DNA from: Streptomyces sp. NL15-2K
GTDB taxonomy: Bacteria > Actinomycetota > Actinomycetes > Streptomycetales > Streptomycetaceae
Assembly: GCF_030551255.1 (NCBI RefSeq)
Contig: NZ_CP130630.1
Coordinates: 1,922,001-1,986,000, forward strand
DNA: 64,000 nucleotides
Direction: 5' to 3'
Notes under the pieces: model-generated
Told to the model about the DNA's origin: nothing
The model's database searches: none
What the model saw: the letters and a program-made list of their open reading frames with translations, nothing else
In this document: positions 11,701 through 28,821 of the stretch, piece by piece
Numbering within the stretch: position 1 is the first letter of the stretch
Layout: the number at the start of each line of letters is the position of its first letter
Program-made: the position numbers and the translations under genes

Positions 11701-14700
11701 TCGGCCAGATCCTCGATGAGCCGGCAGTAGGCGTCGTGCATGGCGTCGAGGACGGCCGGGTCGAAGAGCTGCTCGACGTAGTCCCACTCGGCGACGAAGC
11801 CCTCCTGCGTCTCGTACGCCTTGTTGTCGAGCCACACCTGCGGTGTCTGGGAGATGGAGTGGTCGACACCCTGGTACGTGTCGTTCAACACGAGTTCGAA
11901 CATGCCGGCGTCGGCCGGGGCGCCCAGGGTGCTGGTGAGGACGACCGGGGCCACGATCTTGTTGAGGGGCATGGACTGGCGGGTCTTCAGCAGTCGCTGG
12001 AAGTCGACACCGTCGAAGAGGTTGTGCTCGATGTCGTGGAGCAGGTCGCCGTGGACGCGGCGCAGGGTGTCGGAGATGACGGTGTCGTGTTCGGTGCGGT
12101 GGTCGAAGAGTTCCAGGACGGTGAAGTCGCCGATGACGCCGTTGATGTCGGGGTGCAGGGGCAGCCGGTTGAACAGGGTGAGGTTGACGCACAGCCGGTC
12201 CTGGCCGCTCCAGTGACCGAGCACCCGTCCGAACAGTTCCACGACGAGCGCCGTCGGGCTGATGCCGTGACGGCGACATCGGTCGGTCAGTTTTTCCCAG
12301 ACGGCGGCGGGGACGACCCGGCTCTTGCGCCGGAAAACAGGGGTGTCGACGCTCGACGGGTGGGCCCGCAGCGGCAGCCGGAGGTCGAGCTGGTAGTCGT
12401 CGGCCTTGTCCTCCCAGTACTGCTGGGCCTGGGTCAGCAGGTCGCTGTCGCGGACCTTCTCGTACTGCAGGACGTAGTCGCGGTAGCTGACGCCGAGGTC
12501 GGGCAGACAGCGCTCGGGGTCGGCGTAGAGCTGCGCCCACTCGCCGAAGAGGATCTCGAAGCTCGCCATGTCGATGACAAGGGCGTCGAAGCTGATGTGC
12601 AGCCGGAAGACACCATCGAGGCGGCTCAGCACGATGTCGAACAGGGGGTAGCGCTCCGGGTCGTACAGCTTGTGGGTGTAGCGGCCGCGCAGCTCCTCCA
12701 GTTCGGTCTCGTCGCGCAGGTCGTGGAACGGGACGCGGTGGTACGGGACCTCGCGCAGGAAGCGCTGCTGCCCGTCGGTGAAGACGGTGCGCAGGGCGAG
12801 ATGGCGTCCGATGAGCCGGTTGAACGCGGTCTCCAGCCGTTCGTGGTCGATGCTGCCGTAGCGGAACTCGCTGTAGACGTGCGTCGAGACGTTGCTGAGC
12901 TCGAAGTTGTGGAAGCGGCCCAGGTAGTAGGTCTGCTGGACGTTGGTGAGCGGGAACGGCTCGTAGAGGTGCTCGGTGTCGGTGCCGTCGAGGACATGGT
13001 CGCGGTAGGCGAAGCTCCCGAGGCTCGCGGCGACGAGCGGGGCGAGCCGCCGGACCGTCTTCTCTCGGAAGACGTCGCGGATACGGATGTCGCAGCCCAG
13101 CTCGCTGTTGATGCGGTTGACGAGTTTGATACCCAGGATGCTGTTGCCGCCGGCCTGGAAGAAGTCGTCGGTGACGCCCACGGTCCGGCGGGTCGCGCCG
13201 GTGCCGCCCAGCACCTCGGACCACAGCTCGCACAGGCGGCTCTCCAGCTCGCCGGCGGGGGCGACATACCCCTCGGTGAGGAACTCGCCGGGGTCCGGCA
13301 GCGCCCCGCGGTCGGTCTTGCCGTTGGCGTTCAGCGGCATGCTGTCGAGCGGGACGAACACCGTCGGCATCATGTAGTCGGGCAGCAGCCCGGCCAGATG
13401 GCGCCGCAGGTCCTCCCGGTCGGGCGGTTCGGGGGCCACGTAGTAGACGACGAGATAGCGGGCCTCGTCGGCGGACGGGTCGGTGTCACCGGGTGCGCTG
13501 GGCGGTTGGTGGACGAGGACCAGGCTCTGCTCGACGGCGGGGTGGGCGGTCAGCGCGCTCTCGATCTCGCCGAGTTCGATGCGGTGTCCGCGCAGCTTGA
13601 TCTGGAAGTCGTTGCGGCCGATGAACTCCAGTGCGCCGTCCGGGAGCGCGCTCACCAGGTCACCGGTGCGGTAGAGGCGCTCCTCAGGTACGACGGGGCC
13701 GGTGCCGTCGGTCGCGGGCGGCGGGGTGACGAACCGGCTCGCGGTCAGTTCCGGTGCGTTCAGGTAGCCGCGGGCCAGACCGGTGCCGGCGATGCACAGC
13801 TCGCCCACGACCCCCGGGGGCAGCGGTTGCAGTTCCTCGTCGAGGACGTAGCAGCGGGTGTTGGCGACGGGGGTGCCGATCAGCGGGCGGGGGTCGTCGG
13901 GGGTGAGGAGGCGGCGCGTGGACCATACGGTGGTCTCCGTCGGGCCGTACACGTTCCAGCACTGGTCCACGGTGGCGGCGAGGTCGGCGGCGAGCTGCGG
14001 GGGCAAGGCCTCGCCGCCGCACAGGGCGCGCACGGGCAGCCGTTTGCCGCCGAGGTTCTGGAGGATCAGATGCCACAGGGACGGCGTCGCCTGGACGACG
14101 GAGACGCCGTCCGCGATCAGTTCGACGAGACGGGCGACGTCGAGCAGGTCGGTGCGGCCGGCCAGGACGACGGTGCCGCCGTGCAGGAGCGGCATGTACA
14201 GCTCCAGCGTGGAGATGTCGAAGGCGACGGTGGTCACGGCCAGCATGCGCTCACCGCGTCGGAAGCCGACACTGCGCCCGATGTCCTGGGCGATGTTGAG
14301 GTAGCTGTGGTGCTCCACGGCGACGCCCTTGGGGCGGCCGGTGGTGCCGGAGGTGTAGATGACGTAGGCGAGGTCGGAACCGGTGACCCGTACGTCGAGG
14401 TCGGCTCCGTCGCAGGCGGCCGCCACGGCCTGTACGTCATCGGCGTCGGCGAGGACGACGGGGACGCCCGGGGCGATGTCGTCCAGGCCGGTGTGGTGCG
14501 CGGTGTCACTGAGGATCAGGACGGGCCGGCTGTCGGCGAGGATCGCGGCGGTGCGGCGCGCGGGTGAGCCGAGGTCCAGCGGGACGTAGGCACAGCCCAG
14601 TTTGAGCACGGCCAGCGCGGCGACGAGCAGATGCTCGGTGCGGTCCAGGTACAGCGCGATCAGATCCCCCGGGCGGGGGTCGTGGCGCTCCTGGAGCAGC

Positions 14701-15956
14701 CTGGCGAAACGATTCGCTGCCTCGTTGAACTCCCGGTAGGTCAGGGTCGTACCGCCGTGGACGACGGCGGCCGCGTCGGGCTGCCGCGCGGCCTGCTCCT
14801 CCATCACCCGGTGCAGGGGCCGGTCGTCGTACGGGGCCCTGGTCTCGCGCGCCTGCGCCGCCAGGGCGTGCCGCAGCGTGCCGGGCAGGCACAGCACGTC
14901 GCCGAAAGCGGCGGCGCCTTGCTCGAACCGCTCTAACCGGGCGAGGAAGGCGTCGACGTATTCGCGCAGCACGGCGAGGAACGGCAGCCCTGCCGGAGCC
15001 TCCATCTCCAGCCGGCCACTGCCGACGCAGCGCAGGACCAGGAGGGTGTCCTCGGACTGCGCGGCCCCGTCGGCGTCCACGAGAACCCGCGGCGGACGCG
15101 CCTTTGAAAAGACCTCCCCGAATTCATAGAAGGCATTCTGCGGAGCCCGATACAGCGGATCGTTGAGCTGATCCAGAAGTTCTCGGTGACGCATTCCCCG
15201 ATCGATGTTCAGGTATTTACGTATTCGCCCGGAGGACGTGTGCACGTCGTGGACGTAGATCCCGGACTTCCGGGAGTTCCATACCATCTGCAAGGCCAGG
15301 GAAAGCAATTCGAGACGGTCAGGCGCGAGCGGGACCGAGGTGGCGGACGGAAAGTGCAGGATTTCCCTCTTCCTGGCGGTCTCCGCGATATCGGGACCGA
15401 TGGCCTCGACCAGATCGAAGCGGTCCTCGGCACGGTCGGCGACGCGCGCCCGGGCCGCCAGCGCCTCGGCCGCGTGCTCCATCCGCAACAGCTCGGGGAG
15501 GTCGTCCCGGCACTCATCCACTGACTCGGCCGCAAGGGAGGTGTGGCCTTCACGGGAGAGGCGGATCACCGCGTCGACACAGGCGTCAAGAACCACCCCG
15601 TGCGGATCGCCGACGGCACAGGTCCCGCCCACCAGCACATCTCCGCCGGTCAGCCGCACGGTGCAGCGCGCCTCGGGAAGGGCACCGAAGGCCCGCAGCC
15701 CAGGCGTCAGCACCGGCACATCCGGGCGACGGGCGGCGCCGACGGCGGACCCCACGACATAGTCGAGGCGCCGGTCCACGAGCGTGTCATCGCTGATGAC
15801 GCCCGTGTTGTGGGTCATCCGCGTCCGCCACTCGGTCGGCCCCACCGGGTCGTCGTCCAGCATCCAGACGAAATGCCCGGCGTCCGCCAAGTACTCCGCT
15901 ATTTCCTGCCCGAGCCGGCCGAGTTCCGATCCGACCAGCACGTGAAGAATTTTCAC
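8772..15956 (-). CDS. Nonribosomal peptide synthetase, Gly-Cys with thiazoline oxidase
   Basis: About 2,394 residues from the GTG at 15956, chosen because the encoded VKILHVLVGSELG looks like a folded start; an in-frame codon at 16007 adds only a low-complexity leader. Residues 1-about 400 match no family I can name. Then A1 (A3 motif YVIYTSGTTGRPKG near 530) with pocket D-I-L-Q-L-G-V-V-W, the glycine code; carrier GGNSI near 938; Cy domain with DALVIDMAS (DxxxxDxxS) near 1122; A2 with exact cysteine code D-L-Y-N-L-S-L-I-W near 1747; an FMN-dependent McbC-like oxidase inserted between A8 and A10 (RYPSAGSTYPV near 2014); carrier GGNSL near 2342. Predicted product: glycyl-thiazole passed to the downstream NRPS, whose start codon overlaps this stop. 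It is the first gene of the pair; no thioesterase is present. Confidence 0.95.
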   Translation of the reverse strand: MKILHVLVGSELGRLGQEIAEYLADAGHFVWMLDDDPVGPTEWRTRMTHNTGVISDDTLVDRRLDYVVGSAVGAARRPDVPVLTPGLRAFGALPEARCTVRLTGGDVLVGGTCAVGDPHGVVLDACVDAVIRLSREGHTSLAAESVDECRDDLPELLRMEHAAEALAARARVADRAEDRFDLVEAIGPDIAETARKREILHFPSATSVPLAPDRLELLSLALQMVWNSRKSGIYVHDVHTSSGRIRKYLNIDRGMRHRELLDQLNDPLYRAPQNAFYEFGEVFSKARPPRVLVDADGAAQSEDTLLVLRCVGSGRLEMEAPAGLPFLAVLREYVDAFLARLERFEQGAAAFGDVLCLPGTLRHALAAQARETRAPYDDRPLHRVMEEQAARQPDAAAVVHGGTTLTYREFNEAANRFARLLQERHDPRPGDLIALYLDRTEHLLVAALAVLKLGCAYVPLDLGSPARRTAAILADSRPVLILSDTAHHTGLDDIAPGVPVVLADADDVQAVAAACDGADLDVRVTGSDLAYVIYTSGTTGRPKGVAVEHHSYLNIAQDIGRSVGFRRGERMLAVTTVAFDISTLELYMPLLHGGTVVLAGRTDLLDVARLVELIADGVSVVQATPSLWHLILQNLGGKRLPVRALCGGEALPPQLAADLAATVDQCWNVYGPTETTVWSTRRLLTPDDPRPLIGTPVANTRCYVLDEELQPLPPGVVGELCIAGTGLARGYLNAPELTASRFVTPPPATDGTGPVVPEERLYRTGDLVSALPDGALEFIGRNDFQIKLRGHRIELGEIESALTAHPAVEQSLVLVHQPPSAPGDTDPSADEARYLVVYYVAPEPPDREDLRRHLAGLLPDYMMPTVFVPLDSMPLNANGKTDRGALPDPGEFLTEGYVAPAGELESRLCELWSEVLGGTGATRRTVGVTDDFFQAGGNSILGIKLVNRINSELGCDIRIRDVFREKTVRRLAPLVAASLGSFAYRDHVLDGTDTEHLYEPFPLTNVQQTYYLGRFHNFELSNVSTHVYSEFRYGSIDHERLETAFNRLIGRHLALRTVFTDGQQRFLREVPYHRVPFHDLRDETELEELRGRYTHKLYDPERYPLFDIVLSRLDGVFRLHISFDALVIDMASFEILFGEWAQLYADPERCLPDLGVSYRDYVLQYEKVRDSDLLTQAQQYWEDKADDYQLDLRLPLRAHPSSVDTPVFRRKSRVVPAAVWEKLTDRCRRHGISPTALVVELFGRVLGHWSGQDRLCVNLTLFNRLPLHPDINGVIGDFTVLELFDHRTEHDTVISDTLRRVHGDLLHDIEHNLFDGVDFQRLLKTRQSMPLNKIVAPVVLTSTLGAPADAGMFELVLNDTYQGVDHSISQTPQVWLDNKAYETQEGFVAEWDYVEQLFDPAVLDAMHDAYCRLIEDLAELDWETAAFPSLPVPATDLALIEAANATGEALDSGETLFGLYEAGLHAGRRAAVAVIDAGTGRSHTYGELYDDSERLARVLSTPGTLPDEPRVVGVLAEKGYLQVVGTLAVMKSAAAYVPLNVEWPGGRLAEVLEQAGAGVVLVSRGQAVRPEVAGLGAGCRVLVVEDLLAGEAPEGGLPVVGPDDVAYVIFTSGSTGRPKGVTISHRGAVNTLRSVNDRFGVGPDDRVLALSELSFDLSVYDLFGVLAAGGAIVFPVQEETKNPSHWLGLVREHRVTVWNSVPQLAGLLADEAGETSLEPLRVVLMSGDWIPTQLPDRLKRLSAEATVMSLGGATEGSIWSIWHEVERVDPEWASIPYGTAMPGQRMYVLNGRGEHCPVGVAGEIHIGGAGVALGYWRDEERTAERFFEHPELGRLYRTGDLGRWTRQGWIEFLGRDDFQVKLNGYRVELEEIAAKLSHLPGVDNAVARVQKDDTQDRLVAYLVPAPGTEGAAKGVDRQEFLLSAPGLLDGAEPRLALELSQDPATYTRAKSYRHFLDAPVDPALIGKRFREALGEAGTTLRAEAATTPLGEADLAAVLGVLSATHLPNRALPKYRYPSAGSTYPVRTFLHTPEGHLYFHPLTGELAAHDLDAVAAWSDGHGSELQLVVHWPAITPLYEARSRRLALLEAGHMLALLTEALNASGIPYRVVPEERPLDAEHTGVCRVLLGAAGGFRPAPLESVCRIREAGGTEFAEPGGGHAYDLAAVPVFDRTGDAHAVLSRARCLLTLEGEATAEHLLSAGFLFQRLAERLDADGLGACPLGLTPTDRTVYALAVGAVDEEARRAPESPAEPPTLAEAVTAELARVLPEYMLPTGYRVLDALPLSPNGKLVADRLPPVEFQGTYVAPATDTERALAEVWARVLDRPAGAIGTTDSFFAVGGNSLAAMKLVRLLQRDLGGELKLRDLYANDTILKLAEHLGTAPAAAVREEGEL
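10351..11303 (-). repeat. Cys adenylation-domain block, copy 2
   Basis: Partner of 1439-2391, located in the Cys A domain of the upstream NRPS. Immediately after A8 this copy diverges into the inserted oxidase, whereas the other copy runs on as an ordinary A domain. Confidence 0.9.
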
Positions 15957-16545
15957 CTTGGCCCTGCCCCTGCCTCGACTACAGCAGCACGCAGAGGCCC
16001 AGCACAATGCACCCCCGTGTGCCTTTCAGTAAGCGCAACGCACCTATCCCGGCCGACTGGACGGGTTATCTTTCTCCCCCGCCGTCGAGATACGTGCAAC
16101 AACCATGGAGAGGCTTTCATTGCAATCAATGGCACGTCAAGGAAACGTTTCGGTCAGGCAAACCAGAGAGATCCATAAGATTTGCTTCGAATGCTCATCA
16201 GGATTACTTATGAATAGGTGTGGAGATTGCGCCACCGCCGGGAGGGGTCGTTGAGTCGGCGTCCAGCGGGCCGACCTCGGAATGGCCAGCTCCGAAAGGC
16301 GTCTCGCCTGGCCGACGTGGGCCGACTGAGCCGTCCCGATCAAGCCGTCGGGCTCGGTCGGTCTGAATCGGGCGAGTAGCGCACCGTGAACGTCTGTCAC
16401 GTCTCGAAGTCGTCGGCCGACGGTCCGCCGAGGCGCGCGGCCGTCTCTATCGCTGAGGCGGAGAACAACGCCGCCACCGTTCGTGCGACGGGGCTGTGAC
16501 GTCACCGAGGTGATCAGCCGAGGCGGGCCCAAATCACCGTGACGC
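15957..16545. other. Region upstream of the NRPS operon
   Basis: No gene is supported here. Roughly 16040-16215 is clearly less GC-rich than its surroundings, as expected for the promoter region of the minus-strand NRPS genes. On the minus strand a TTGACG hexamer occurs near 16138, but I cannot place a convincing -10 box, so no promoter is asserted. The open frame at 16137-16532 lacks any recognisable motif. Confidence 0.4.
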
Positions 16546-16846: not shown

Positions 16847-17728
16847 CTAATCCTCGTCCTGTTCATCAGGCTCGGGCGGCTGGTCGTAGGCGCTCAGGAG
16901 CCCCTCGATGCGCTGGTTGTTGATGGACTGCCGGTCATACAGGCACTTCGCGTACCGGGACAACAGAACCTCGACGCTGTTACCGGCCCGCTGGGCAACC
17001 TCAGCCGGGTCGGCCCCCGCGCACAGCCAGGTGGACAGCGCTGAGTGCCGCAGGTCGTACGGCCGTTTCGTGAGCGGGGTGCTGCCCAGGACGGGCGGCA
17101 GGGCGAGGGCGCGGGTCTCGTGCCAGACCCGGTTGTAGGTGGTGTAAGTGATGATCCGGCCCTGTTCGGTGAAGAACAGCCGGCCGTCGTCAGCCGTGCC
17201 GAACGTGGCGACGTGGTCCCTCCACATCGTCACCAGGTGCGGCGGCAACGGCACCACCCGCGTCTCTCCCCGCGGGCGGTTCTTCAGCCCACGCTCGTCG
17301 TGGAACTTGCCGGTGTCGGTCCACCGCTTGCCCGCCTGCGGCAGCGTGCGATGCAGGACCAGCCGACCCCAACCAGTGCGGGGCAGGTGGCAGTCCGGTA
17401 GCGCCACCGCGACCGCCTCCTCCGGACGCAGACCGGCGTAGTACATGCCGGCGAAGAACCCGACCAGCCGACGGCCACGAGCACGCCGATAGCCGCCCAC
17501 GTAGGAAACGGCGTCCAGCAGATCCCGTGCCTGCTGAGGGTTGGCCACGACCCGCGGGTCCACCGCGATGGCCGGCTTGGGCACCCGCCAGCGGATCTTC
17601 TCCAGCGGATGACTGCCCAGCTCGCCCCGCTCCACGGCGTAGTGAGTCGTCACTCTTTCGGTCAGGTGGATGCGAAAAAGGGCCGCCGACGCAGGCCGAT
17701 GTTCGCTCCACTTCCTCCTGCTGTCCAC
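16847..17728 (-). pseudogene. Tyrosine site-specific recombinase (integrase), 5'-truncated
   Basis: The frame gives up to 293 residues of a phage/ICE-type tyrosine integrase. Visible catalytic elements are GLRPEE (first Arg), YDLRHSALSTWL (box II) and GNSVEVLLSRYAKCL with the Tyr nucleophile near the C-terminus. The part before HYAVERGELGSHPLEKIRW, which should be the SAM-like core-binding domain, is replaced by unrelated sequence, so the N-terminal third is missing. The GTG at 17728 is only the first in-frame start, not the native one. The catalytic domain itself looks intact. A second, shorter relic of a related integrase lies at 21536-21650 in the same orientation. Confidence 0.8.
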
Positions 17729-18043: not shown

Positions 18044-18514
18044 TCAGCAGCAGCCGCCCGCGACGGCCGGTTCCTTCGCGGCGACGGTGACGGCGGTGTC
18101 GGCCGGGCCGACGCAGCAGGTGCTGCCTTGCTGCTTGGCCAGGGAGTCGGCGTCGGCCTTGACGACGTACACCTCCCAGGGTTCCTGGCCGGGGCCGTGG
18201 ACCCAGACCTTGTCCTGGAGGGCGTAGCAGCAGGTGGTGTCGTCTTCCACGTCGGTGGCCAGGCCGGCCTCGCCCAGGCGGGCGGTGGCGGCGTGGACGG
18301 CCTCGGTGCTCTCGACCTCGACGCCGAGGTGGTCCATGCGGGTCGCCTCGCCCGCCGCGCCTTCGATCAGGACGAGCTTGAGCGGGGGCTCGGTGATGGC
18401 GAAGTTGGCGTAGCCGTCGCGGAGTTTGGCGGGCTCGGTGCCGAACAGCTTGCTGTAGAAGGCGACCGAGGCGTTGAGGTCAGGGACGCGGAGGGCGAGC
18501 TGTACGCGGGACAT
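18044..18514 (-). CDS. cadI: CadI/ArsI-family glyoxalase-fold protein
   Basis: 156 residues of the vicinal-oxygen-chelate fold, closely resembling mycobacterial CadI (cadmium-induced protein) and related to ArsI C-As lyases. Seen: MSRVQLALRV start, GYANFAI, DHLGVEV, the vicinal cysteine pair in DDTTCCYALQDKVWV that binds thiophilic metal(loid)s, and a Cys-rich tail ending GGCC. Residue 5 is Gln where ArsI enzymes carry a metal-ligand His, so lyase activity is doubtful and a CadI-like role is more likely. A perfect AAGGAGG ribosome site precedes the ATG at 18514. It is preceded on the same strand by the broken flavoprotein gene, suggesting a former arsenic/cadmium operon. Confidence 0.88.
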   Translation of the reverse strand: MSRVQLALRVPDLNASVAFYSKLFGTEPAKLRDGYANFAITEPPLKLVLIEGAAGEATRMDHLGVEVESTEAVHAATARLGEAGLATDVEDDTTCCYALQDKVWVHGPGQEPWEVYVVKADADSLAKQQGSTCCVGPADTAVTVAAKEPAVAGGCC

Positions 18515-18542: not shown

Positions 18543-19447
18543 TCAGCAGCCGCCGGAGGCGGTGGCCGGGGCGCCGATGCCGATCTGGAGGGTAGCGGGG
18601 GCCGCGCAGCAGCCGCCGCCTTCAGCGCCCTGTGCGGCCTCGGGGTCGTCGAAGAGGCCCGCGCCGCCGCAGACGCCGGTCTCAGGCAGGGTCAGCTCGA
18701 CGCGCTCGGCGGCCTCCTGGTCGCCGGCGATCGCTGCCGCGATGGAGCGGACCTGCTCGTAGCCGGTCATGGCGAGGAACGTGGGGGCGCGGCCGTAGGA
18801 CTTCATGCCGACCAGGTAGACGTCCTGCTCCGGGTGGGAGAGCTCGTTGACGCCGTGCGGGTAGACGGTGCCGCAGGAGTGCTGGTTGGGGTCGATGAGC
18901 GGGGCCAGCACGGTCGGGGCCTGGAGGCGCTCATCGAGGCCGAGGCGGACCTCGGAGAGGAAGGACAGGTCGGGGGCGGAAGCCGGTCAGGACGATGACC
19001 TCGTCGACCGGGTCGAGGCGGCGGCCGTCCTCGCCGACGAGCACCAGCCGGCCGTCGGCGTCGCGCTCGATGGCGTCGGTGCGGAAGCCGGTGACCGCGT
19101 CGGCGTGGCCGTCGTCGACGGCGGCCTTGGCGGCCAGGCCGAGGGCGCCGCGGGCGGGCAGCTGGTCGGCGGCGTCGCGCTCGATGGCGTCGGTGCGGAA
19201 GCCGATGACCGCGTCGGCGTGGCCGTCGTCGACGGCGGCCTTGGCGGCCAGGCCGAGGGCGCCGCGGGCGGGCAGCTGGTCGGCGGTGCCGCCGCCGAAG
19301 GTGGAGCCGGAGATGCCGCGGCGCAGGATCCACACGCCCTTGGTGCCGGTGCCGTCATCGGACGTGGCGAGGTCTGCGAGGTAGGCGAGCGCGGTGAAAG
19401 CGGAGGCCCCGGAGCCGATGACCGCGGTGCGCTTGCCCTGGAGGCAG
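18543..19447 (-). pseudogene. ArsO-like flavoprotein, 5'-truncated and frameshifted
   Basis: Encodes the back two-thirds of an FAD/NAD(P)H-dependent oxidoreductase of the kind found beside cadI/arsC genes. Visible are the second Rossmann motif GSGASAF, DEVIVLTGFRP, then APLIDPNQHSCGTVYPHG and a Cys-rich tail. The first (FAD) Rossmann motif is absent: homology stops at about 19447, exactly where the divergent arsC and its RBS begin. One extra base in a run of five G (18972-18976) shifts the frame between TGFRP and the expected DLSFLSE. It also contains a 114 bp in-frame tandem duplication. Non-functional as read. Confidence 0.75.
19057..19284 (-). repeat. 114 bp tandem duplication inside the flavoprotein gene
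   Basis: Two head-to-tail copies (about 19057-19170 and 19171-19284), almost identical, each encoding 38 residues that begin ADQLPARGALGL. A single I/T difference is visible in the translation. The frame is kept across the duplication. Confidence 0.85.
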
Positions 19448-19449
19448 CG

Positions 19450-20111
19450 ATGACTGAGACCGCGCCCGTCCCGCACCGCAACCTGAGCATCGACCAGCAA
19501 CTCGCCCTGCGTACCGCCGCCACCCATCTGGGCCGCGAGTTCGACGGCACCTTCGGCCAGGAGACGATCGAACGGTTCCAGCACACCAGCTACGACCAGT
19601 TCGCCGGCCGCAGCACCATCCCCAACTTCCTCCCGCTCATGGCCGAACGCTTCGCCCGCCAGCGCCTGCGCGCCCTGGCCAAGGTCGAGGGTCACCGCAC
19701 CGACGGCAAGCCGATCGTGCTGTTCCTCTGTGTCCACAATGCCGGCCGCAGCCAGATGGCCATGGGCTTCTTCCAGCACCTCGCCGGCGACAATGCGGTC
19801 GCCTGGTCGGGTGGCTCCGAACCCGGGAACGAGGTCAACCCGGCGGCCATCGCCGCGATGAGCGAGCGCGGCATCGACATCTCCCGCGAGTTCACCAAGC
19901 CTGGACCGACGAGATCGTCCGCGCCGCCGACGTCGTCGTCAGCATGGGCTGCGGCGACGCCTGCCCCGTTTTCCCCGGCAAGCGCTACCTCGGATGGACC
20001 CTGGACGACCCCGCCGGCCAGTCAGTCGACGACGTCCGCCCCATCCGCGACGACATCGAGCGCCGCGTCCGCGGTCTCCTCGACGACCTCGGCGTCCCGA
20101 CGCAGCACTGA
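19450..20111 (+). pseudogene. arsC: Arsenate reductase with N-terminal helical domain, frameshifted
   Basis: Starts at ATG 19450 after GGAGG. Residues 1-about 80 form the alpha-helical extension usual in actinobacterial ArsC (HRNLSIDQQLALRTAATHL), followed by the low-molecular-weight phosphatase-like core with the P-loop FLCVHNAGRSQMA, whose Cys is the arsenate nucleophile. After EFTKP the frame is lost: one C appears missing near 19902. Re-reading one frame over restores WTDEIVRAADVVVSMGCGD and GKRYLGWTLDDP to a natural stop at 20109-20111. Total length is 3n+2, consistent with a single deletion. Either decay or a base-calling error in CCC. Confidence 0.8.
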
Positions 20112-20507
20112 CCGCGGACATGGGTGCGGCGGCCGGCCCACGGCTCGTCTTCGCCGACGTGCACAGCGACTGAGGCGACCGGGTTCTGTGGCAGGAAGTA
20201 TCGGGCTGCACAGCGCCATGAGCAGTGCACACCGCCCCTCCAGGCTGCCCTGGCCAACGCCGTGATCACGACATCACCCGGCCATGGCCGCGCATGCCTG
20301 CCCGGCCGTCCTGCACGCCCAAGACCCGGACGCGGGCGGAGCAGAAACGGCCGTGGGCTGCGGGGGAAGGGAAGCCCGAAGCCTCCTCGCTGGGTTGGAG
20401 CTGGGCGGCTCGACCTCTGCGGAGGCCGTACCGCCCCTATCGGCCGTACCCTTCGTGGTGTCCACGGCGTCACGTAGCGGGCGCCAAACCACTGGAGGCA
20501 ACACCCC
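20112..20507. other. Gap between arsC and rpoA
   Basis: No gene supported on either strand; the long open frames here are shadows of rpoA. The last 20-30 bases before rpoA (GGAGG at 20494-20498) look like the native rpoA leader, so the rpoA duplication appears to have carried its own ribosome site. I could not identify a promoter. Confidence 0.4.
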
Positions 20508-21524
20508 GTGCTGATCGCTCAGCGTCCGTCCCTGACCGAAGAGGTCGTCGACGAGTTCCGCTCCCGGTTCGTGATCGAGCCGCTGGAGCCAGGATTCGGC
20601 TACACCCTCGGCAACTCCCTCCGCCGCACCCTCCTTTCCTCGATCCCCGGTGCGGCCGTCACCAGCATCCGGATCGACGGTGTCCTGCACGAGTTCACCA
20701 CCGTGCCGGGCGTCAAGGAGGACGTCACCGACCTCATCCTCAACATCAAGCAGCTCGTCGTGAGCAGCGAGCAGGACGAGCCGGTCGTGATGTACCTGCG
20801 CAAGCAGGGTCCGGGTCTGGTCACCGCCGCCGACATCGCGCCCCCGGCCGGTGTCGAGGTCCACAACCCCGACCTCGTCCTCGCCACGCTCAACGGCAAG
20901 GGCAAGCTGGAGATGGAGCTGACCGTCGAGCGCGGCCGCGGTTACGTCTCCGCTGTCCAGAACAAGCAGGTGGGCCAGGAGATCGGCCGTATCCCGGTCG
21001 ACTCGATCTACTCGCCCGTTCTGAAGGTCACGTACAAGGTCGAGGCGACCCGTGTCGAGCAGCGCACCGACTTCGACAAGCTGATCGTCGACGTCGAGAC
21101 CAAGCAGGCCATGCGCCCCCGCGACGCCATGGCGTCCGCCGGCAAGACCCTGGTCGAACTGTTCGGGCTCGCCCGTGAGCTCAACATCGACGCCGAGGGC
21201 ATCGACATGGGCCCGTCCCCGGTGGACGCCGCCCTTGCCGCCGACCTGGCGCTGCCGATCGAGGAGCTGGAGCTCACGGTCCGCTCCTACAACTGCCTCA
21301 AGCGCGAGGGCGTCCACTCCGTGGGCGAGCTCCTGGCGCGCTCCGAGGCCGACCTTATGGACATCCGTAACTTCGGTGCGAAGTCCATCGACGAGGTCAA
21401 GGCGAAGCTCGCCGGCCTGGGTCTGGGCCTCAAGGACAGCCCGCCCGGATTCGACCCGACCGTCGCCGCCATCGGTGCGGACAACGACGCGGACGCGGGT
21501 TTCATGGAGACCGAGCAATACTGA
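20508..21524 (+). CDS. rpoA: RNA polymerase alpha subunit, stand-alone copy
   Basis: 338 residues, full length for Streptomyces RpoA, GTG start with GGAGG nine bases upstream. The N-terminal assembly domain is intact ([40 protein letters not shown]). The C-terminal domain keeps the DNA-contact residues: [12 protein letters not shown] (equivalent of E. coli R265 and N268) and [14 protein letters not shown] (G296, K298, S299, E302). It ends in the acidic tail GFMETEQY. The standard neighbours (rpsM, rpsK, rpsD before, rplQ after) are absent; instead it sits between frameshifted arsC and an integrase relic. It is either a second, mobile rpoA or a relocated sole copy; an extra copy seems more likely. 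No internal stop or frameshift, in contrast to its decayed neighbours, suggesting selection or recent arrival. Confidence 0.97.
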
Positions 21525-21535
21525 ACGCTGGGCTG

Positions 21536-21650
21536 CGTCGGCCGTAGAGACACTTCGCGTACGGGGACAGGAGAACCTCCACGCAGTTCTCTGCCCGCCG
21601 GGCGGTCCCGGCCGGGTCCGCGCCCGCGCACACACCCGGGCGAAGACGGC
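21536..21650 (-). pseudogene. Second integrase relic (C-terminal scrap)
   Basis: About 95 bp aligns with the 3' end of the integrase at 16.9-17.0 kb. On the minus strand it reads CAGADPAGTARRAENCVEVLLSPYAKCLYG, compared with CAGADPAEVAQRAGNSVEVLLSRYAKCLYD, split here as: first half CAGADPAGTARRA, second half ENCVEVLLSPYAKCLYG. The catalytic Tyr context survives but nothing upstream does. The relic has diverged from the other copy, so this is a homologous integrase rather than a recent duplicate. Confidence 0.7.
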
Positions 21651-21799
21651 CGGCGGCAAAGCGGCGCGGCTCCGGCGCTTCACGTACAACCCGCCGCTCG
21701 GCCAGCCGACGTAGGCCGGCCATCGGCCGGAATGTCTCAGCGCGGCCACGGGTGACACCCTTACCCTGAGCCGCCGCAATCGCACTGATGTCGACATCG

Positions 21800-22322: not shown

Positions 22323-22955
22323 CTACGGTTTGGTGTGCGTCGTGCATGCGTGCTGTCGTCCGACGCCGGGTACGAAGCGGCCCGCCGTTGCCGCGTAGGC
22401 GGCATAGTCCGGACCGTGCACCGCCCTGAGGTAAGGCTCCTCGACCACACGCACCTGCAGTTCAATGGCGATGACCAGGGCGGCGAGGGAGGCGAGGGCG
22501 AGGATGTTCGTCACCATCAGGGTGAGCCCGAGGCCGGTGACGGCCATGGTGGTGAAGATCGGGTTGCGTACGCGGGCGAAGGGGCCGTTGCTGATGAGTG
22601 CGGTGCGTTCTTCCTGGTCCACGCCCACGCGCCAGGACGCTCCCATGGCCCGCTGGGCGATCAGGGTGCCGGCGATGCCGAGCGCGGTGATCGCCGTACC
22701 GGCCCAGCGCACGGCCAGGGTGTCGCCCCCGGCGACCGGCAGGCCCGCCAGTGTGGCGACGGGCGCGGCGGCGGCGCCCAGCAGGGCGGCGATGAACAGC
22801 ACTCCGGCCCACCAGGAGGCCGAGCCGGGGGCGCCCGACAGTCCGCGGAAGCCCGAGTCGCCGGTGCGCCGGCGCTGGATGAGCGTGCGCAGTCCGAAGG
22901 CGATCAGCAGCCAGAACCCGTACAGCGCCAGTGCCGCCCACGCCCAGCCGGTCAT
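22323..22955 (-). CDS. Isoprenylcysteine carboxyl methyltransferase (ICMT/PEMT)-family membrane protein
   Basis: 210 residues with about five hydrophobic segments and the family's C-terminal signature: GPFARVRNPIFT, then EEPYLRAVHGPDYAAYAATAGRFVPG. The fold binds S-adenosylmethionine at the membrane and methylates a small-molecule or lipidated substrate; the bacterial substrate is unknown. Its ATG overlaps the stop of the CDF transporter by four bases (ATGA), so it is the third gene of the cmtR-CDF-ICMT operon. The context suggests a link to heavy-metal handling, though no mechanism is visible in the sequence. Confidence 0.85.
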   Translation of the reverse strand: MTGWAWAALALYGFWLLIAFGLRTLIQRRRTGDSGFRGLSGAPGSASWWAGVLFIAALLGAAAAPVATLAGLPVAGGDTLAVRWAGTAITALGIAGTLIAQRAMGASWRVGVDQEERTALISNGPFARVRNPIFTTMAVTGLGLTLMVTNILALASLAALVIAIELQVRVVEEPYLRAVHGPDYAAYAATAGRFVPGVGRQHACTTHTKP

Positions 22956-23680
22956 CGGGCCTCCCCCTTGGCCGGGGTGCAGCAGGCGCAGTCCGGAGCG
23001 CAGCCGCAGCCGTCCGGTTCCGCCGCTTCGGCGAATCCCCCCATGGGAACGGCGCAGCAGTTGTCACCGCGCCATGCCTCGCGGCCTTCCTTGACCGCGA
23101 CGGCGGCGATCACCAGGGCCGCGATGGGGTCGGCCCAGCTCCAGCCGAGCAGGGAGTTGGCGAGCAGGCCGACGAGGAGGACGGCGGAGAGGTAGGTGCA
23201 CAGCAGGGTCTGCTTCGAGTCCGCCACAGCTGAGGCGGAGCCGAGTTCCCGTCCGGCGCGGCGCTGGGCGGCGGACAGGAACGGCATGACCGCCAGGGAG
23301 AGGGCGGCCAGCACGATGCCGGGCGTGGAGTGCTCCGCTTCGCCGGTGCCGGTCAGGGCCCGGACCGAATCGACGATGACGTAGGCGGCGAGGGCGAAGA
23401 AGGACAACGCGATGATGCGCAGCGCGGTCTTCTCCCTCGCCTCGCGAACGGCGTGGTCGGCGGCGGAGAACTGCCAGGCGACGGCTGCGGCGGAGGAGAC
23501 CTCGACGACCGAGTCCAGGCCGAAGCCGATGAGCGCGGTCGAGGAGGCGAGAGTGCCGGCGGTGATCGCGACGATCGCCTCGATGACGTTGTAGGTGATC
23601 GTGGCGGCGACCAGCAGACGTATACGGCGAGCCAGCTGGGAACGACGGGTCGGCGTGGGTCCGAGGGATATGGACGCCAT
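22952..23680 (-). CDS. Cation diffusion facilitator family heavy-metal transporter
   Basis: 242 residues from ATG 23680. Six hydrophobic segments are visible; the typical CDF helix appears as STALIGFGLDSVVEVSSA, with Asp in the metal-site position. The C-terminus is unusual: instead of the long cytosolic ferredoxin-like domain it ends in a short Cys-rich tail (NCCAVPMGG, then CGCAPDCACCTP), a probable metal-binding strap. The start codon overlaps the cmtR stop (TGATG), indicating translational coupling. Probable role is proton-driven export of Cd/Pb/Zn under CmtR control. Confidence 0.88.
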   Translation of the reverse strand: MASISLGPTPTRRSQLARRIRLLVAATITYNVIEAIVAITAGTLASSTALIGFGLDSVVEVSSAAAVAWQFSAADHAVREAREKTALRIIALSFFALAAYVIVDSVRALTGTGEAEHSTPGIVLAALSLAVMPFLSAAQRRAGRELGSASAVADSKQTLLCTYLSAVLLVGLLANSLLGWSWADPIAALVIAAVAVKEGREAWRGDNCCAVPMGGFAEAAEPDGCGCAPDCACCTPAKGEAR

Positions 23681-24015
23681 CAGCAGCAGCCCTTCTCTTC
23701 GGCGTCCGGGCAGGTGCGGTCGGCCTCGACAGCGAGGACCGCGCCACGCAGGTCGTCCAGGGCATGGCCGAGACGGGCGTCGGCCAGTTCGTAGCGCACG
23801 CGACGGCCTTCGGGGACGGCGACGACGATGCCGCAGTCCCGCAGACAGGCGAGGTGGTTCGACAGTCGGGTCCGGGAGATCTCCAGCTGGTCGGCCAGGT
23901 CGGCGGGGTGCGCCGGCGCCTTGCGCAGGGCGAGCAGGATGCGGCAGCGGATCGGGTCGGCGAGGGCACGGCCGAAGCGGGCCAGGGCGTCGATGTCGGA
24001 GGCGATCGTCAGCAC
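23680..24015 (-). CDS. cmtR: CmtR-type ArsR/SmtB metal-sensing repressor
   Basis: 111 residues from GTG 24015. Winged-helix ArsR fold with ALADPIRCRILLAL at the start and recognition region ISRTRLSNHLACLRDCG. The Cys-x3-Cys pair in that helix (LACLRDC), plus a Cys in the tail (EADRTCP), matches the three-cysteine Cd/Pb site described for mycobacterial CmtR. An extra CC ends the protein. It heads an operon with the CDF exporter and an ICMT-like methyltransferase. A 32 bp inverted repeat begins 12 bases upstream of the start, as expected for autoregulation. Confidence 0.88.
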   Translation of the reverse strand: MLTIASDIDALARFGRALADPIRCRILLALRKAPAHPADLADQLEISRTRLSNHLACLRDCGIVVAVPEGRRVRYELADARLGHALDDLRGAVLAVEADRTCPDAEEKGCC

Positions 24016-24026
24016 GCCCTCGACGG

Positions 24027-24058
24027 TACACGGAAACCTGAATTCAGGGAACCGTGTA
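24027..24058. promoter_or_regulatory. Probable CmtR operator
   Basis: Imperfect inverted repeat: TACACGG at 24027-24033 pairs with CCGTGTA at 24052-24058, around a perfect 12 bp palindrome CCTGAATTCAGG (24037-24048). Thirteen of 16 positions pair. It lies directly upstream of cmtR and downstream of the second CDF gene. Confidence 0.75.
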
Positions 24059-24083
24059 TCGTCGTCGGGCGTCGGCCCGAAGG

Positions 24084-25106
24084 TCAGTGCTGGTGCGGCC
24101 CGTCCCGGTGGATGGGGCCGTGCGGGTCCTCGCAGTGCGCGGCGTCGCCTGTTCCTTCGCCGGCCAGGGCAACCTGCAGGACCTGTTCCGGCGTGTGATC
24201 GACCTGGAGCGTGGTGTGGGTGATGCCGTAGTCGCACGGGAGGAGTTCCTCCAGGTCGCGGCGGACGGCGTGGCAGTCGCCGCCGGGCTCGACCAGGACG
24301 TGCGCGGAGAGGGCGGACTGGCCGGACGTGATCTGCCAGACATGCAGGTCGTGCACCTCGACGACGGTCGGCTGGGCGACGAGATTGTCGCCCAGCGCGT
24401 CCGGATCGACATCCGCGGGGGCGGCCTCCAGGAAGATCCGGCCGGACTCGCGCAGCAGCCCGTACCCGGCCTTGAACATCAGGGCGACCACCACGAGCGT
24501 GGCGATGGCGTCAGCGCGGGCGAACCCGGTGAGCAGCACGATCAGACCGGCCACCGCGGTGCCGATGAACGCGAACAGGTCGTTGAGGATGTGCTGGTAG
24601 GCACCCTCGACGTTGAGGGAGGAGCGGTTGGCCTTGGAGATGCACCAGGCGGCCGCGATGTTCACCACGATCCCGGCGAGGGCTGTGACGAACACCAGCC
24701 CGCCTTCCACCTCGGGCGGGTCGATCAGGCGGTGCACGGCCTCGTACGCGAGCCACGCGCCGAGCAGGAGCAGGGTCAGGCCGTTGGCTTGGGCGGACAG
24801 TATCTCGGCGCGCTTGAGCCCGTACGTGAAGCCGCCGCGGGCCGGGCGGGCGGCCAGCCGCATGGCGATCAGCGCGAGCACGATCGACACGGCGTCGGTC
24901 AGCATGTGCGCCGCGTCCGAGATCAGGGCGAGGGACTGGGCCACGATGCCGATGACGACCTCGCCCGCCATGAACACGGTGATCAGGCCGAGCGCGATGC
25001 CCAGCCAGCGGCGGTCGGCGTCCGCCGAGACGCCGTGAGAGTGCCCGGCGTGTCCTCCCCCTCCGTGCTCGCGTCCCGGACCGTGCACGTGAGTGTGATC
25101 GCCCAT
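24084..25106 (-). CDS. czcD: CDF-family cation efflux transporter (CzcD/ZitB type)
   Basis: 340 residues from ATG 25106 (GAGGGG upstream). His-rich N-terminus (HTHVHGPGREHGGGGHAGHSHG), six TM segments with the paired metal-site motifs SLALISDAAHMLTD and NVEGAYQHILNDLFAFIG (HxxxD in TM2 and TM5), and a cytosolic C-terminal domain with EVHDLHVWQITSGQ. This is the canonical Zn/Cd/Co exporter. It lies upstream of cmtR on the same strand, 69 bp away, so may be read through into that operon but has its own leader. Confidence 0.93.
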   Translation of the reverse strand: MGDHTHVHGPGREHGGGGHAGHSHGVSADADRRWLGIALGLITVFMAGEVVIGIVAQSLALISDAAHMLTDAVSIVLALIAMRLAARPARGGFTYGLKRAEILSAQANGLTLLLLGAWLAYEAVHRLIDPPEVEGGLVFVTALAGIVVNIAAAWCISKANRSSLNVEGAYQHILNDLFAFIGTAVAGLIVLLTGFARADAIATLVVVALMFKAGYGLLRESGRIFLEAAPADVDPDALGDNLVAQPTVVEVHDLHVWQITSGQSALSAHVLVEPGGDCHAVRRDLEELLPCDYGITHTTLQVDHTPEQVLQVALAGEGTGDAAHCEDPHGPIHRDGPHQH

Positions 25107-25432
25107 GGTGTACGTCTTCCCCCTCGCAGCGGATGCCTTGCCCGCAGTGAAACGCACGCATACGCGAATCGCCAAAGGCTGCATCGGTGACCGTTGTCAT
25201 GTCGGTTAACAAGCCCTTGACCTGCGGAAACTTGCCGACTGGCGGAAGCGCCCGGGCGGCGGCGTCGTGAGGTCCCCCCCTGTCGTGAACCCGCGGGGTG
25301 GGTGGTCGGTACGCTTCCAGGACGTACGGGCCATGCGGTCCCTTCACCCGCCGTTCCGTCCGCTCCGTCCGCTCCGTCCGCTCCGTCCGCTCCGTCCGCT
25401 CCGGCGACGGACTCCCCGAAGGCCACACCCTG
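25107..25432. other. Intergenic region with 9 bp tandem repeats
   Basis: Divergent promoter region between czcD (minus) and the copper-linked membrane gene (plus). From about 25352 to 25405 a 9-base unit (CGCTCCGTC) is repeated about five times, the first and last degenerate. No gene supported; an in-frame extension of the next gene through the repeat would encode SVRSVRSVRS and looks non-natural. Confidence 0.6.
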
Positions 25433-26189: not shown

Positions 26190-26783
26190 ATGTACGTCAC
26201 CGACCGGCGGGCCGTCCGCACGGCGGCACGCGCCCTTGTCGTACCGGCCGCCCTGGCGGCCTTGGCCGTCGCCGCCCCGCAGGCAGCGGCCCACACCGAG
26301 CTCGACATCAGCAGCCCCGCGGCGAACGCCGAACTCGCCGGGCTTCCCCCGCGCGTCACACTGACCTTCAGCGACGCAATGACCCAGAAGTACGCCAAGG
26401 TCGCCGTCACCTCACCGGACGGCACGTCGGCCGCCTCCGGCGAGCCGCAGGTCTCCGGCAAGACGCTCACCCTCACCCTCGAACCCACCTCGGGCGCCGG
26501 GCAGTACACGGTGGGCTACCGGGTCGTCTCCGCCGACGGGCACCCCGTCGCCGGTTCGTACACCTTCACCGTCGCCGAGGCCAACAGCCCCAGTCCGTCG
26601 CCTCGCGCCGAGGAGTCGGCCGGTGCGGCGGCTCCCCCCGCCGCCCAGGAGTCCGCGCCGGACAAGACCGACGAGGAGTCCTCCGGCACGACCGTCCCCG
26701 TCCTCGCGGGTGCCGGGGCGCTGGCCGTGGCAGCCGCGGGCGGGTACGCCGTACGACGGAGGCGAGCCGGTCATGGCCACTGA
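26190..26783 (+). CDS. copC: CopC-domain copper-binding protein
   Basis: 197 residues. Signal peptide (RTAARALVVPAALAALAVAA) cleaved before HTELDISSPA, placing a His at the mature N-terminus as in CopC/LPMO-like copper sites. The beta-sandwich follows, with a second ligand candidate in SADGHPVAGSYTFTV, then a Pro/Ser/Glu-rich linker and a C-terminal TM helix (VPVLAGAGALAVAAAGGYAV) with Arg anchor. It is thus an extracytoplasmic, membrane-anchored copper carrier. The stop overlaps the copD start by 11 bases. Confidence 0.93.
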   Translation: MYVTDRRAVRTAARALVVPAALAALAVAAPQAAAHTELDISSPAANAELAGLPPRVTLTFSDAMTQKYAKVAVTSPDGTSAASGEPQVSGKTLTLTLEPTSGAGQYTVGYRVVSADGHPVAGSYTFTVAEANSPSPSPRAEESAGAAAPPAAQESAPDKTDEESSGTTVPVLAGAGALAVAAAGGYAVRRRRAGHGH

Positions 26784-28821
26784 GACCACCTCCAGGGCCA
26801 GGCGGCTGCCGCAGCTGCCCTTCGTGCTGGCCGGATCGGTCGGCCTGGCCGTCGCCGTCACAGCCCTCGCGGTGTGGGCCGGTGGCGGGGCCGCGGTCGA
26901 GATCCCCGGGGTTCCGGATGCGGGCGCGCTGACTGCGTGGGGCCTGCCGGTTGCCCGTACCCTCGCGGACGCGGCCGCCGTGGCGCCCGTGGGTGCGCTG
27001 TTGCTGGTCGTCGTGCTGTTGCCGGGCGGCAAGAAGCTCAGTCGGACCCAGCTGCGCTACCTCGACTGGGCTGCCGCCGCTGCCGCGTTGTGGGCCGTGG
27101 CGGCGGTCGCCGCGCTGGTGTTCACGCTGTCGGACCTGTTCGCCCAGCCGGTCGGCGAGATCGTGTCTCCCGCGGTGGTGGCGGACTTCGTCGCCACGGA
27201 CGCCCAGGGACGCTCGTACGCGCTGATGGCGGGCGCCGCGGGCCTGATCGCAACGCTGTGCGTGGGCATCGGCACGGCCCGCTGGGCCCGTCTGTCGCTC
27301 GTCCTCGCGCTGGCCGGGATGCTCCCGCCCGCCTTCACCGGGCATTCCTCGGCAGCGGGCAACCACGACGCCGCCGTCACCAGCCTCGCCCTGCACCTGG
27401 CCGGTGTCGCGGTGTGGGTCGGCGGGCTGGTCTTCGTCCTGATCGTCGCCGCACGCCGGGAGGAGCAGGCGGCGGACGCCGTCCGGCGCTTCAGCCCGCT
27501 CGCCGCGTGGGCGCTGCTCGCGGTCACGGCCAGCGGCGTCGTGAACGCCGCGGTCCGATTCCCCTCCCTGAGTGAGGTGTTCACCAGCCGGTACGGGCTG
27601 ATGGTGCTCACCAAGGCCGCGGCGCTCGCCGCACTGGGCGGCATCGGATGGTGGCACCGCCGCCGCACGCTGCCCGCCCTCAAGGACAGCAGGTGGCGGG
27701 GGTTCGTACGGCTCGCCGCCGGCGAACTCCTGCTCATGGCCGCGGCCATCGGTCTCGCCGTCGGCTTGTCGCGCACTCCCGCCCCCGGCGCCGGTGACGC
27801 CTCGCTCTCACCCACCGAGGAACTGCTGGGCTTCGCCATGCCGCCGCCGCTCGGCGACTTCCCGTGGACGCCGCTGTTCACCCAGTGGCACTTCGACCCG
27901 CTGTTCGCCTTCGGTACGGCCGCCGCCGCGCTGCTGTATCTGGCGGGCGTACGGAAGTTGCGCGCCCGGGGCGACGAGTGGCCCGTCGGACGGACGATCT
28001 CGTGGCTGCTGGGCCTGGCGGTGACCGTCCTCGCCACCATGAGCGGGCTCAACACGTACGGCAAGGTCCTGTTCAGCGTGCACATGGGCCAGCACATGAT
28101 CCTCGCGATGACGGTGCCGATCCTGCTCGTGCTGGGCGCGCCCGCCACCCTCGCCCTGCGGGCCCTGCCCGCCGCCCCGAAGGGAGAGCCGGACGGGCCG
28201 CGCGAGATGCTGATGAAGCTGCTGCACAGCCGGTATGTGAAGGTCATCTCGCATCCGGTGGTGGCGAGCGTGCTGTTCATCGGCAGCGCCTTCGTCGTCT
28301 ACTACAGCTCGCTCTTCGAGACCCTGATGAGCAGCCACCTCGGCCACATGTTCATGCTGGTGCACTTCCTGGCCGTGGGCCTGCTGTTCTTCTGGGTCGT
28401 CATCGGCATCGACCCCGGCCCGCGCCGCCCACCCCACCTGGGCCGGCTGTTCGTGCTGATCCTGACGATGCCGTTCCACTCCTGGTTCAGCATCTCGCTG
28501 ATGAGCTCCACCGCGCTGATCGGCGAGGGCTGGTGGTCGCTGCTCGACCGGCCGTGGGTCGAGCAGCCCATGGACGACCAGTACGACGCCGGCGCCATCG
28601 CCTGGGCCACCGGCGACATCCCCGTACTGATCACCACGATCATCCTGGCCATCCAGTGGGTCCGCTCCGACCAGCGCGAGGCCCGCCGCGTCGACCGCCA
28701 GATCGACCGCGGCGACCACAACGACCCGCTCGCCGCCTACAACGCCTACCTGGCGAGCCTGCACGCCCGCGACCAGCGACCCGCCCGCCCCTCCACACCC
28801 ACCCCCACCGAGGAACCATGA
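26773..28821 (+). CDS. copD: CopD-CtaG fusion copper transport/cytochrome oxidase assembly protein
   Basis: 682 residues from ATG 26773, chosen because the overlapping copC ends at 26783. The N-terminal half is a CopD membrane domain (GHSSAAGNHDAAVTSLALHL, YGLMVLTKAAALAALGGIGW). The C-terminal half is the Caa3-type CtaG domain (FTQWHFDPLFAF, HMGQHMILAMTVPILLVLGA, MPFHSWFSISLMS). Many conserved His/Met lie in TM helices and are likely copper ligands. The combination suggests moving copper across the membrane and supplying cytochrome c oxidase assembly. The stop overlaps the next start (ATGA). Confidence 0.93.
   Translation: MATETTSRARRLPQLPFVLAGSVGLAVAVTALAVWAGGGAAVEIPGVPDAGALTAWGLPVARTLADAAAVAPVGALLLVVVLLPGGKKLSRTQLRYLDWAAAAAALWAVAAVAALVFTLSDLFAQPVGEIVSPAVVADFVATDAQGRSYALMAGAAGLIATLCVGIGTARWARLSLVLALAGMLPPAFTGHSSAAGNHDAAVTSLALHLAGVAVWVGGLVFVLIVAARREEQAADAVRRFSPLAAWALLAVTASGVVNAAVRFPSLSEVFTSRYGLMVLTKAAALAALGGIGWWHRRRTLPALKDSRWRGFVRLAAGELLLMAAAIGLAVGLSRTPAPGAGDASLSPTEELLGFAMPPPLGDFPWTPLFTQWHFDPLFAFGTAAAALLYLAGVRKLRARGDEWPVGRTISWLLGLAVTVLATMSGLNTYGKVLFSVHMGQHMILAMTVPILLVLGAPATLALRALPAAPKGEPDGPREMLMKLLHSRYVKVISHPVVASVLFIGSAFVVYYSSLFETLMSSHLGHMFMLVHFLAVGLLFFWVVIGIDPGPRRPPHLGRLFVLILTMPFHSWFSISLMSSTALIGEGWWSLLDRPWVEQPMDDQYDAGAIAWATGDIPVLITTIILAIQWVRSDQREARRVDRQIDRGDHNDPLAAYNAYLASLHARDQRPARPSTPTPTEEP

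Follow-up and report, generated by a model that had tools for sequence, protein, structure and literature searches.

Sequence comparisons indicate that the rpoA gene analyzed here probably belongs to a mobile family of lone rpoA paralogues present in Streptomyces and its relatives, and that it is probably functional. The occurrence of the same roaming rpoA on the chromosomes and plasmids of many Streptomyces suggests that a housekeeping subunit has turned mobile and exchanges sequence with the resident gene. The core subunits of RNA polymerase are as a rule regarded as encoded by single genes that are inherited vertically. The gene is situated in the window, i.e. the whole stretch of 64,000 nucleotides that was analyzed (C1:1922001–1986000), within the 12.3-Mb contig of a 12.4-Mb genome of three contigs. 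Three rpoA genes were detected in this genome, at 1.94 Mb (the window copy), 6.92 Mb and 7.90 Mb. The 6.92-Mb gene is the canonical one, flanked by genes reading as S11 and L17, and the window rpoA is thus not a relocated sole copy. The 7.90-Mb gene is a second solo gene about 6 Mb from the window copy, and by eye its surroundings include carbohydrate genes, a VapC-like ORF and an integrase-like ORF. The original prediction had regarded the window gene as the second of two alpha subunit genes; it is instead one of three.

The description of the gene as coding for a full-length, intact alpha subunit was borne out. The protein of 338 aa matched RNA_pol_A_bac, RNA_pol_A_CTD and RNA_pol_L above the Pfam cut-offs, and these three domains together in one protein were used to define RpoA. 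The best solved relative, 7vpd_A (340 aa), aligned over residues 1–338, covering the whole length. Also the DNA-contact residues of the C-terminal domain (CTD) were all present as had been claimed: in the alignment the protein keeps the residues corresponding to R265, N268, C269, G296, K298, S299 and E302 of E. coli, which we take to be the contact positions. Neither S13 or S11 upstream nor L17 downstream was found around the gene in the ORF list and the Pfam matches of the window neighbours, in agreement with its being called stand-alone. For comparison, the canonical rpoA of L004 has genes read as S13 and S11 upstream and a gene read as L17 downstream. The leader looks native as proposed, including the GGAGG motif, and its sequence (...CACTGGAGGCAACACC) is common to solo copies of other species. 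The protein is 97% identical to the canonical RpoA of the same genome, the alignment having 13 differing positions of which two are gaps: H89Q, T239V, I269V, V276L, L284M, M304L, A307G and six in the tail. Within residues 1–238 the only difference is H89Q.

Table 1. Features of the window in and around the solo rpoA gene.
Feature	Position	Strand	Remarks
Integrase-family ORF, probably degenerate	16850..17728	-	Pfam Phage_integrase match below cut-off
Glyoxalase-fold ORF	18044-18514		Domain present (Pfam)
arsC-like (low-molecular-weight phosphatase) gene, frameshifted	19507..20111	+	Pfam LMWPc
Candidate GC-rich inverted repeat 5' of leader	20403..20436	+	Other leaders similar by eye
Leader hairpin	20466..20485	+	GGCG stem, 12-nt loop 20470-20481, CGCC; weakened actinomycete rpoA leader hairpin
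Ribosome-binding site GGAGG	20494..20498	+	9 nt before GTG
Solo rpoA, RNA polymerase alpha subunit	20508..21524	+	GTG start, 338 aa, TGA stop; ORF list, Pfam
Tyrosine-integrase C-terminal remnant	21532..21654	-	Convergent with rpoA, starts 8 bp past rpoA stop
Methyltransferase-type ORF	22323-22955		Domain present (Pfam)
Cation-efflux ORFs	22952-24031 and 24084-25184		Domains present
ArsR-type regulator	23680-24237		Domain present
CopC	26190-26783		Domain present
CopD/CtaG	26623-28821		Domain present

The frameshift in the upstream arsC-like gene was confirmed, as the LMWPc match in the ORF included only profile positions 1–67 of 144 and the remainder lies in another frame up to 20111. Also the integrase relic beside rpoA was found as predicted. 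The claim that every neighbour is broken did not hold, since the glyoxalase-fold, methyltransferase-type, cation-efflux, ArsR-type, CopC and CopD/CtaG ORFs keep their domains. Other features observed in the window were a 114-bp tandem duplication 5' of the arsC-like gene (19045–19286; 2.1 copies, 96% matches), a 9-bp repeat CCGCTCCGT in 5.9 copies (25351–25403), and an ORF of 2411 aa on the reverse strand (8772–16007) that by eye resembles a non-ribosomal peptide synthetase.

RpoA was found in all the 393 genomes of the same-genus sample, the own genome included. At least two RpoA matches were present in 86 of these (counted by hand from the list), some of the second matches being fragments; in G023, G057, G072 and G224 they consisted only of short fragments or distant CTD-like stretches. 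In some genomes (e.g. G305, G320) the matches seemed split or were multiple and weak; the cause proved to be a gap of 25 Ns or the end of a contig, and they were set aside. The solo leader and start were also searched for as a 22-base pattern, with the reversed pattern as a control. Allowing up to two mismatches, the pattern was found in 86 of the 393 genomes, while the reversed pattern gave three hits. With at most one mismatch it was found in 65 genomes, of which 63 also had at least two RpoA matches; G147 and G029 had a single RpoA match each. A spare alpha subunit of the solo family is accordingly present in about one of six sampled Streptomyces species (63/393), and others carry copies in plasmid records. 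In other genera of the family, at least two RpoA matches were found in eight of 51 genomes, three of these only in pieces. The scan of named genomes produced 76 stretches matching the leader pattern exactly (not checked singly), of which 73 were titled Streptomyces, one of them a MAG, two were titled 'Actinobacteria bacterium OV320' and one was a MAG titled Gemmatimonas. The last, L254 (JAABRL010000057.1), is a MAG contig with the solo leader pattern and represents either contamination or transfer.

RpoA matches were found in 87 plasmid records, 21 of them from Streptomyces. Twelve of the 21 were inspected, including four larger than 1 Mb that may be secondary chromosomes. The rpoA genes of all twelve grouped in the solo clade and ten had the solo leader signature, and no ribosomal-protein neighbour was seen within the stretches fetched at the eight annotated loci. 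The examples include a linear plasmid of 130 kb with a MOBF relaxase, ssb upstream of rpoA and a terminal-protein gene downstream, linear plasmids of 217 kb (ssb upstream) and 158 kb, and a circular one of 79 kb. In the linear plasmids L385 and L386 ssb lies upstream of rpoA with one small ORF between them. A Tsukamurella 'plasmid' match turned out to be a canonical operon and was excluded from all solo counts. RpoA matches were found in 20 of 50,697 phage records, 19 of the 20 with less than 60% identity, and several of the 15 matches listed would by our reading be host DNA.

A FastTree tree was constructed of the leader and codons 240–340, including 105 canonical genes and the 92 of 102 extra copies with at least 320 aa (ten short ones were dropped). 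It placed 88 of the 92 extra copies, the window copy (L001) among them, in one clade with an SH-like support of 0.90. The remaining four (L146, L180, L362 and L363) show that independent duplications occur too. The single origin rests on the leader and the C-terminus jointly, since each was insufficient alone: codons 240–340 divided the extra copies into 25 clades, and the leader grouped 61 of 62 with an SH value of 0.293. In the tree of codons 60–239, the 92 extra copies formed 57 separate clades among the 105 canonical genes. The pattern-found copies had been picked by their leader, and the other 37 (17 of the same genus, eight of the family and 12 from plasmids) had not. A leader signature resembling TCTACGGCGT was present in 60 of the 65 pattern-found copies and 19 of the 37 others, and in none of the 105 canonical genes. 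The window copy has both this signature and a position in the leader and C-terminal clade, the two characters delimiting the solo family.

In pairwise BLASTN comparisons of the solo rpoA regions, the alignments had their median start 72 bp before the start codon and their median end 6 bp beyond position 1020. The copies have little in common beyond the leader, the ORF and about 10 bp, and in the subgroup of the window copy the common stretch can reach some 1.7 kb; between the window and L104 it measures 1731 bp (-504 to +1204). Longer stretches were shared by L097 and L100 (10.5 kb), L094 and L095 (9.3 kb), L065 and L091 (6.8 kb), and L074 and the 7.90-Mb copy of the own genome (4.1 kb). Such longer stretches in a few related pairs are as expected for inheritance in place. 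ORFs collected from 62 solo loci with a simple picker were clustered; rpoA came up in 58 loci, whereas each of the other families was confined to six loci or fewer. The idea of a functional gene neighbourhood was therefore dropped, and the counts lend no support to the metal genes as an explanation of the gene either. Although a few loci have an ArsR-type regulator nearby, no linkage to it was assumed. Of the check proposed originally, for rpoA beside integrase or ars genes in other Streptomyces, the integrase part was borne out by relics behind the rpoA stop in several species.

Integrase similarity was detected in 11 of the 62 solo loci and in none of the other 51 within the stretch examined. 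The convergent C-terminal integrase remnant is present 8 bp past the rpoA stop also in L113, L066 and L105, and similar DNA is found in the same position in L104 and L107. This recurrence of the junction indicates that it is ancestral for the subgroup and no accident of the window. In the own genome the integrase family of the window was matched nine times, and four of these matches lie no more than 4 kb from one or the other solo rpoA. In 48 other genomes (41 with a match), eight of 124 integrase matches, representing six loci and picked out by hand, were situated at most 10 kb from a solo rpoA; the rough expectation was 0.26, but related loci are not independent. No intact integrative element was seen at the solo loci examined.

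The scatter of the mid-gene part into 57 clades, against the single leader and C-terminal clade, is characteristic of gene conversion involving the resident rpoA. At the third positions of codons 61–240 the solo genes had an identity of 0.936 to their own canonical gene and of 0.864 to shuffled partners (at most 0.878 in 2000 shuffles), and 33 of 49 solo genes matched their own canonical gene best. The corresponding identities were 0.839 and 0.788 for codons 241–316 (best match in 11 of 49) and 0.855 and 0.792 for codons 1–60 (20 of 49). As the excess was found also in the first and last parts, the mid-gene contrast is a matter of degree: the signal extends along the whole gene and is strongest mid-gene, and relatedness may add to it. 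In G094 the solo gene and its own canonical gene are identical over 770 bp without interruption, compared to at most 266 bp for any other canonical gene. The window copy departs from this pattern: for codons 1–240 the canonical gene of its genome ranks 37th of 46. The comparisons show indirectly that recurrent conversion would overwrite mainly the mid-gene part, while the leader and the C-terminal part stay more distinct.

A hairpin with a stem of 5–6 bp and the loop TCA[AT]AT[AGT]G[CT]GG[GAT] was found in the leaders of canonical rpoA genes; the loop ends about 20–30 nt upstream of the start codon, and in one leader 65 nt upstream of it. Of the 119 leaders scored, 67 came from the same genus (the extra copy L146 included), 30 from the family and 22 from other families; four further loci were unscorable. 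All 119 matched the loop in at least 11 of 12 positions and 116 had a stem of five or six pairs, while among 6000 random stretches of 150 nt, 17 passed the loop and one both loop and stem. In 40 distinct sequences, 91.7% of the cells paired (69.9% when shuffled) and the covariation score was 0.597 (0.221 when shuffled), neither value being reached in 500 shuffles. Less striking were the pairs changed on both sides (6 vs 4.2; 19 of 500 shuffles) and the further pair types (14 vs 12; 68 of 500). Sliding the partner abolished the pairing. The hairpin may not be universal: the 22 leaders of other families belong to those members of the class sample that matched best, and the model found nothing at the rpoA of G446, a genome of the same class. 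The best match of the hairpin model R1 in the own genome was at the canonical rpoA (E 5e-6), the other matches looked at not being convincing gene leaders. At the phylum level R1 had a match at E ≤ 0.1 in 18 of 80 genomes; all those at ≤ 2.6e-4 belonged to the same class, and one match (E 0.001) came from another class.

The Rfam 15 scan of five loci (E up to 1) gave no match at the rpoA leader hairpin. It detected the L17 leader RF03132 behind the canonical rpoA in L002, L024 and L026; in L003 two matches below the threshold lay at other sites. The L17-Actino-Proteobacteria leader is likewise a cis-regulatory RNA of the actinomycete alpha operon, but it sits behind rpoA and the present hairpin before it. 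Among the 62 solo leaders the loop passed in 55, only four of the six pairs were present in 43 and at least five in 16, and 25 of 34 distinct forms had C as the fourth loop base. The window leader showed no unusual folding stability (z -0.13), compared to -1.96 for the canonical one. A covarying hairpin before rpoA, widespread in actinomycetes and weakened in the solo copies, is thus a candidate cis-regulatory RNA, for which feedback control of rpoA is predicted. Such a conserved hairpin would provide a handle on the control of alpha supply in actinomycetes.

A full-length ORF was present in 54 of the 62 solo loci. Four others ran off the contig, two had an N gap, and two (L072, L087) lacked the 3' part, in L072 perhaps because of misassembly. 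In G336 (L072, L173), a single contig, no complete rpoA was found, both copies being cut mid-gene with no Ns at the break, and the genome was probably misassembled between near-identical rpoA copies. The extra copy of G232 has an internal stop. The mean Nei–Gojobori dN/dS was 0.027 between canonical genes and 0.095 between solo genes, the roughly threefold ratio indicating relaxed constraint; in the tail the values were 0.013 and 0.29, respectively. The comparison between the window gene and its own canonical gene (dN 0.027, dS 0.31) shows, as the original prediction would have it, an extra alpha subunit that is intact and selected. On these ratios the solo genes are under purifying selection that is relaxed in comparison to the canonical genes, most of all at the C-terminal end.

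According to the preferred reading, the unit of leader and ORF, found at mostly unrelated sites of chromosomes and plasmid records, would have moved with plasmids and integrative elements as the likely vehicles, its mid-gene part being repeatedly overwritten by conversion with the resident canonical rpoA. The solo alpha would dimerise through its near-canonical N-terminal domain and join RNA polymerase beside the canonical alpha, raising or buffering the alpha supply, and the altered leader hairpin may put it under different expression control. If the solo alpha is made, cells would hold mixed polymerases. A more far-reaching scenario, in which the mobile second alpha is spread by plasmids or integrative elements, the hairpin is altered to escape the control of the resident rpoA, conversion keeps the protein compatible with the host polymerase and alpha alleles pass between species, is speculative and, taken as a whole, unlikely. 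A specialized alpha, with a divergent CTD and tail shifting promoter or activator preference and the N-terminal domain remaining canonical, is somewhat unlikely. The substitutions are indeed concentrated in residues 239–340 (I269V in 48, V276L in 29 and A307G in 30 of 54 solo copies) and the dN/dS of the linker and CTD was 0.088 in the solo genes and 0.015 in the canonical ones, a difference that also fits relaxed constraint. The commonest CTD changes, however, swap similar residues, and the DNA-contact residues are unchanged in all the 54 solo copies, as also in the 47 sequences of the canonical set (which includes the extra copy of G371). No pointer to the suggested resistance to an alpha-targeting factor was found in the sequence.

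The small unit with almost no shared neighbours, the plasmid carriage, the integrase relics and the conversion would also be consistent with an rpoA captured by elements, of no benefit to the host and kept alive by gene conversion alone. This is distinctly unlikely, as the window copy has not been recently converted and has yet remained intact at the divergence given above. If movement and conversion are all that happens to the solo rpoA, they would affect phylogenies built on core genes as well as assemblies. Some broken genes in the flanks, and canonical-like leaders on a few extra copies elsewhere (L146, L362, L363), might point to a recent local duplication of the canonical rpoA heading for decay. 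Such an origin is very improbable and, for the window copy, already contradicted by the leader and start codon, which differ from the canonical ones and are common to other species; also the synonymous divergence of 0.31 and the intact reading frame argue against it. Assemblies do break at rpoA where two copies exist, but a misjoin is extremely improbable in a window inside a 12.3-Mb contig, with the junction of leader, rpoA and integrase recurring in other species.

Duplicated rpoB genes in some actinomycetes are drug-resistance alleles of the beta subunit. They resemble the solo rpoA in being extra RNA polymerase subunit genes of actinomycetes, but no comparable target change was seen in the solo alpha. 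In Francisella, two rpoA genes resulting from a genus-wide duplication encode alpha1 and alpha2, which mainly form a heterodimer (PMC3294249). The systems are alike in having two non-identical alphas in one genome, whereas the extra Streptomyces copy is patchy, mobile and partly plasmid-borne, with a nearly canonical N-terminal domain; N-terminal divergence of the Francisella type is absent from the window pair. A duplicate alpha is thus already known from Francisella (PMC3294249), while a search of titles and abstract openings, covering few subscription journals, found no account of an extra, mobile or converting rpoA in Streptomyces.

The canonical Streptomyces rpoA also stands close, with its nearly identical protein and homologous leader hairpin, and the solo copy differs from it in the lack of ribosomal-protein neighbours and of RF03132 behind it, the GTG start and the altered leader. 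Some canonical leaders hold ACTGGAGGCAA like the solo copies (L181 of G147, can_G066, L267 and L284), which gives a hint of the source lineage of the solo leader.
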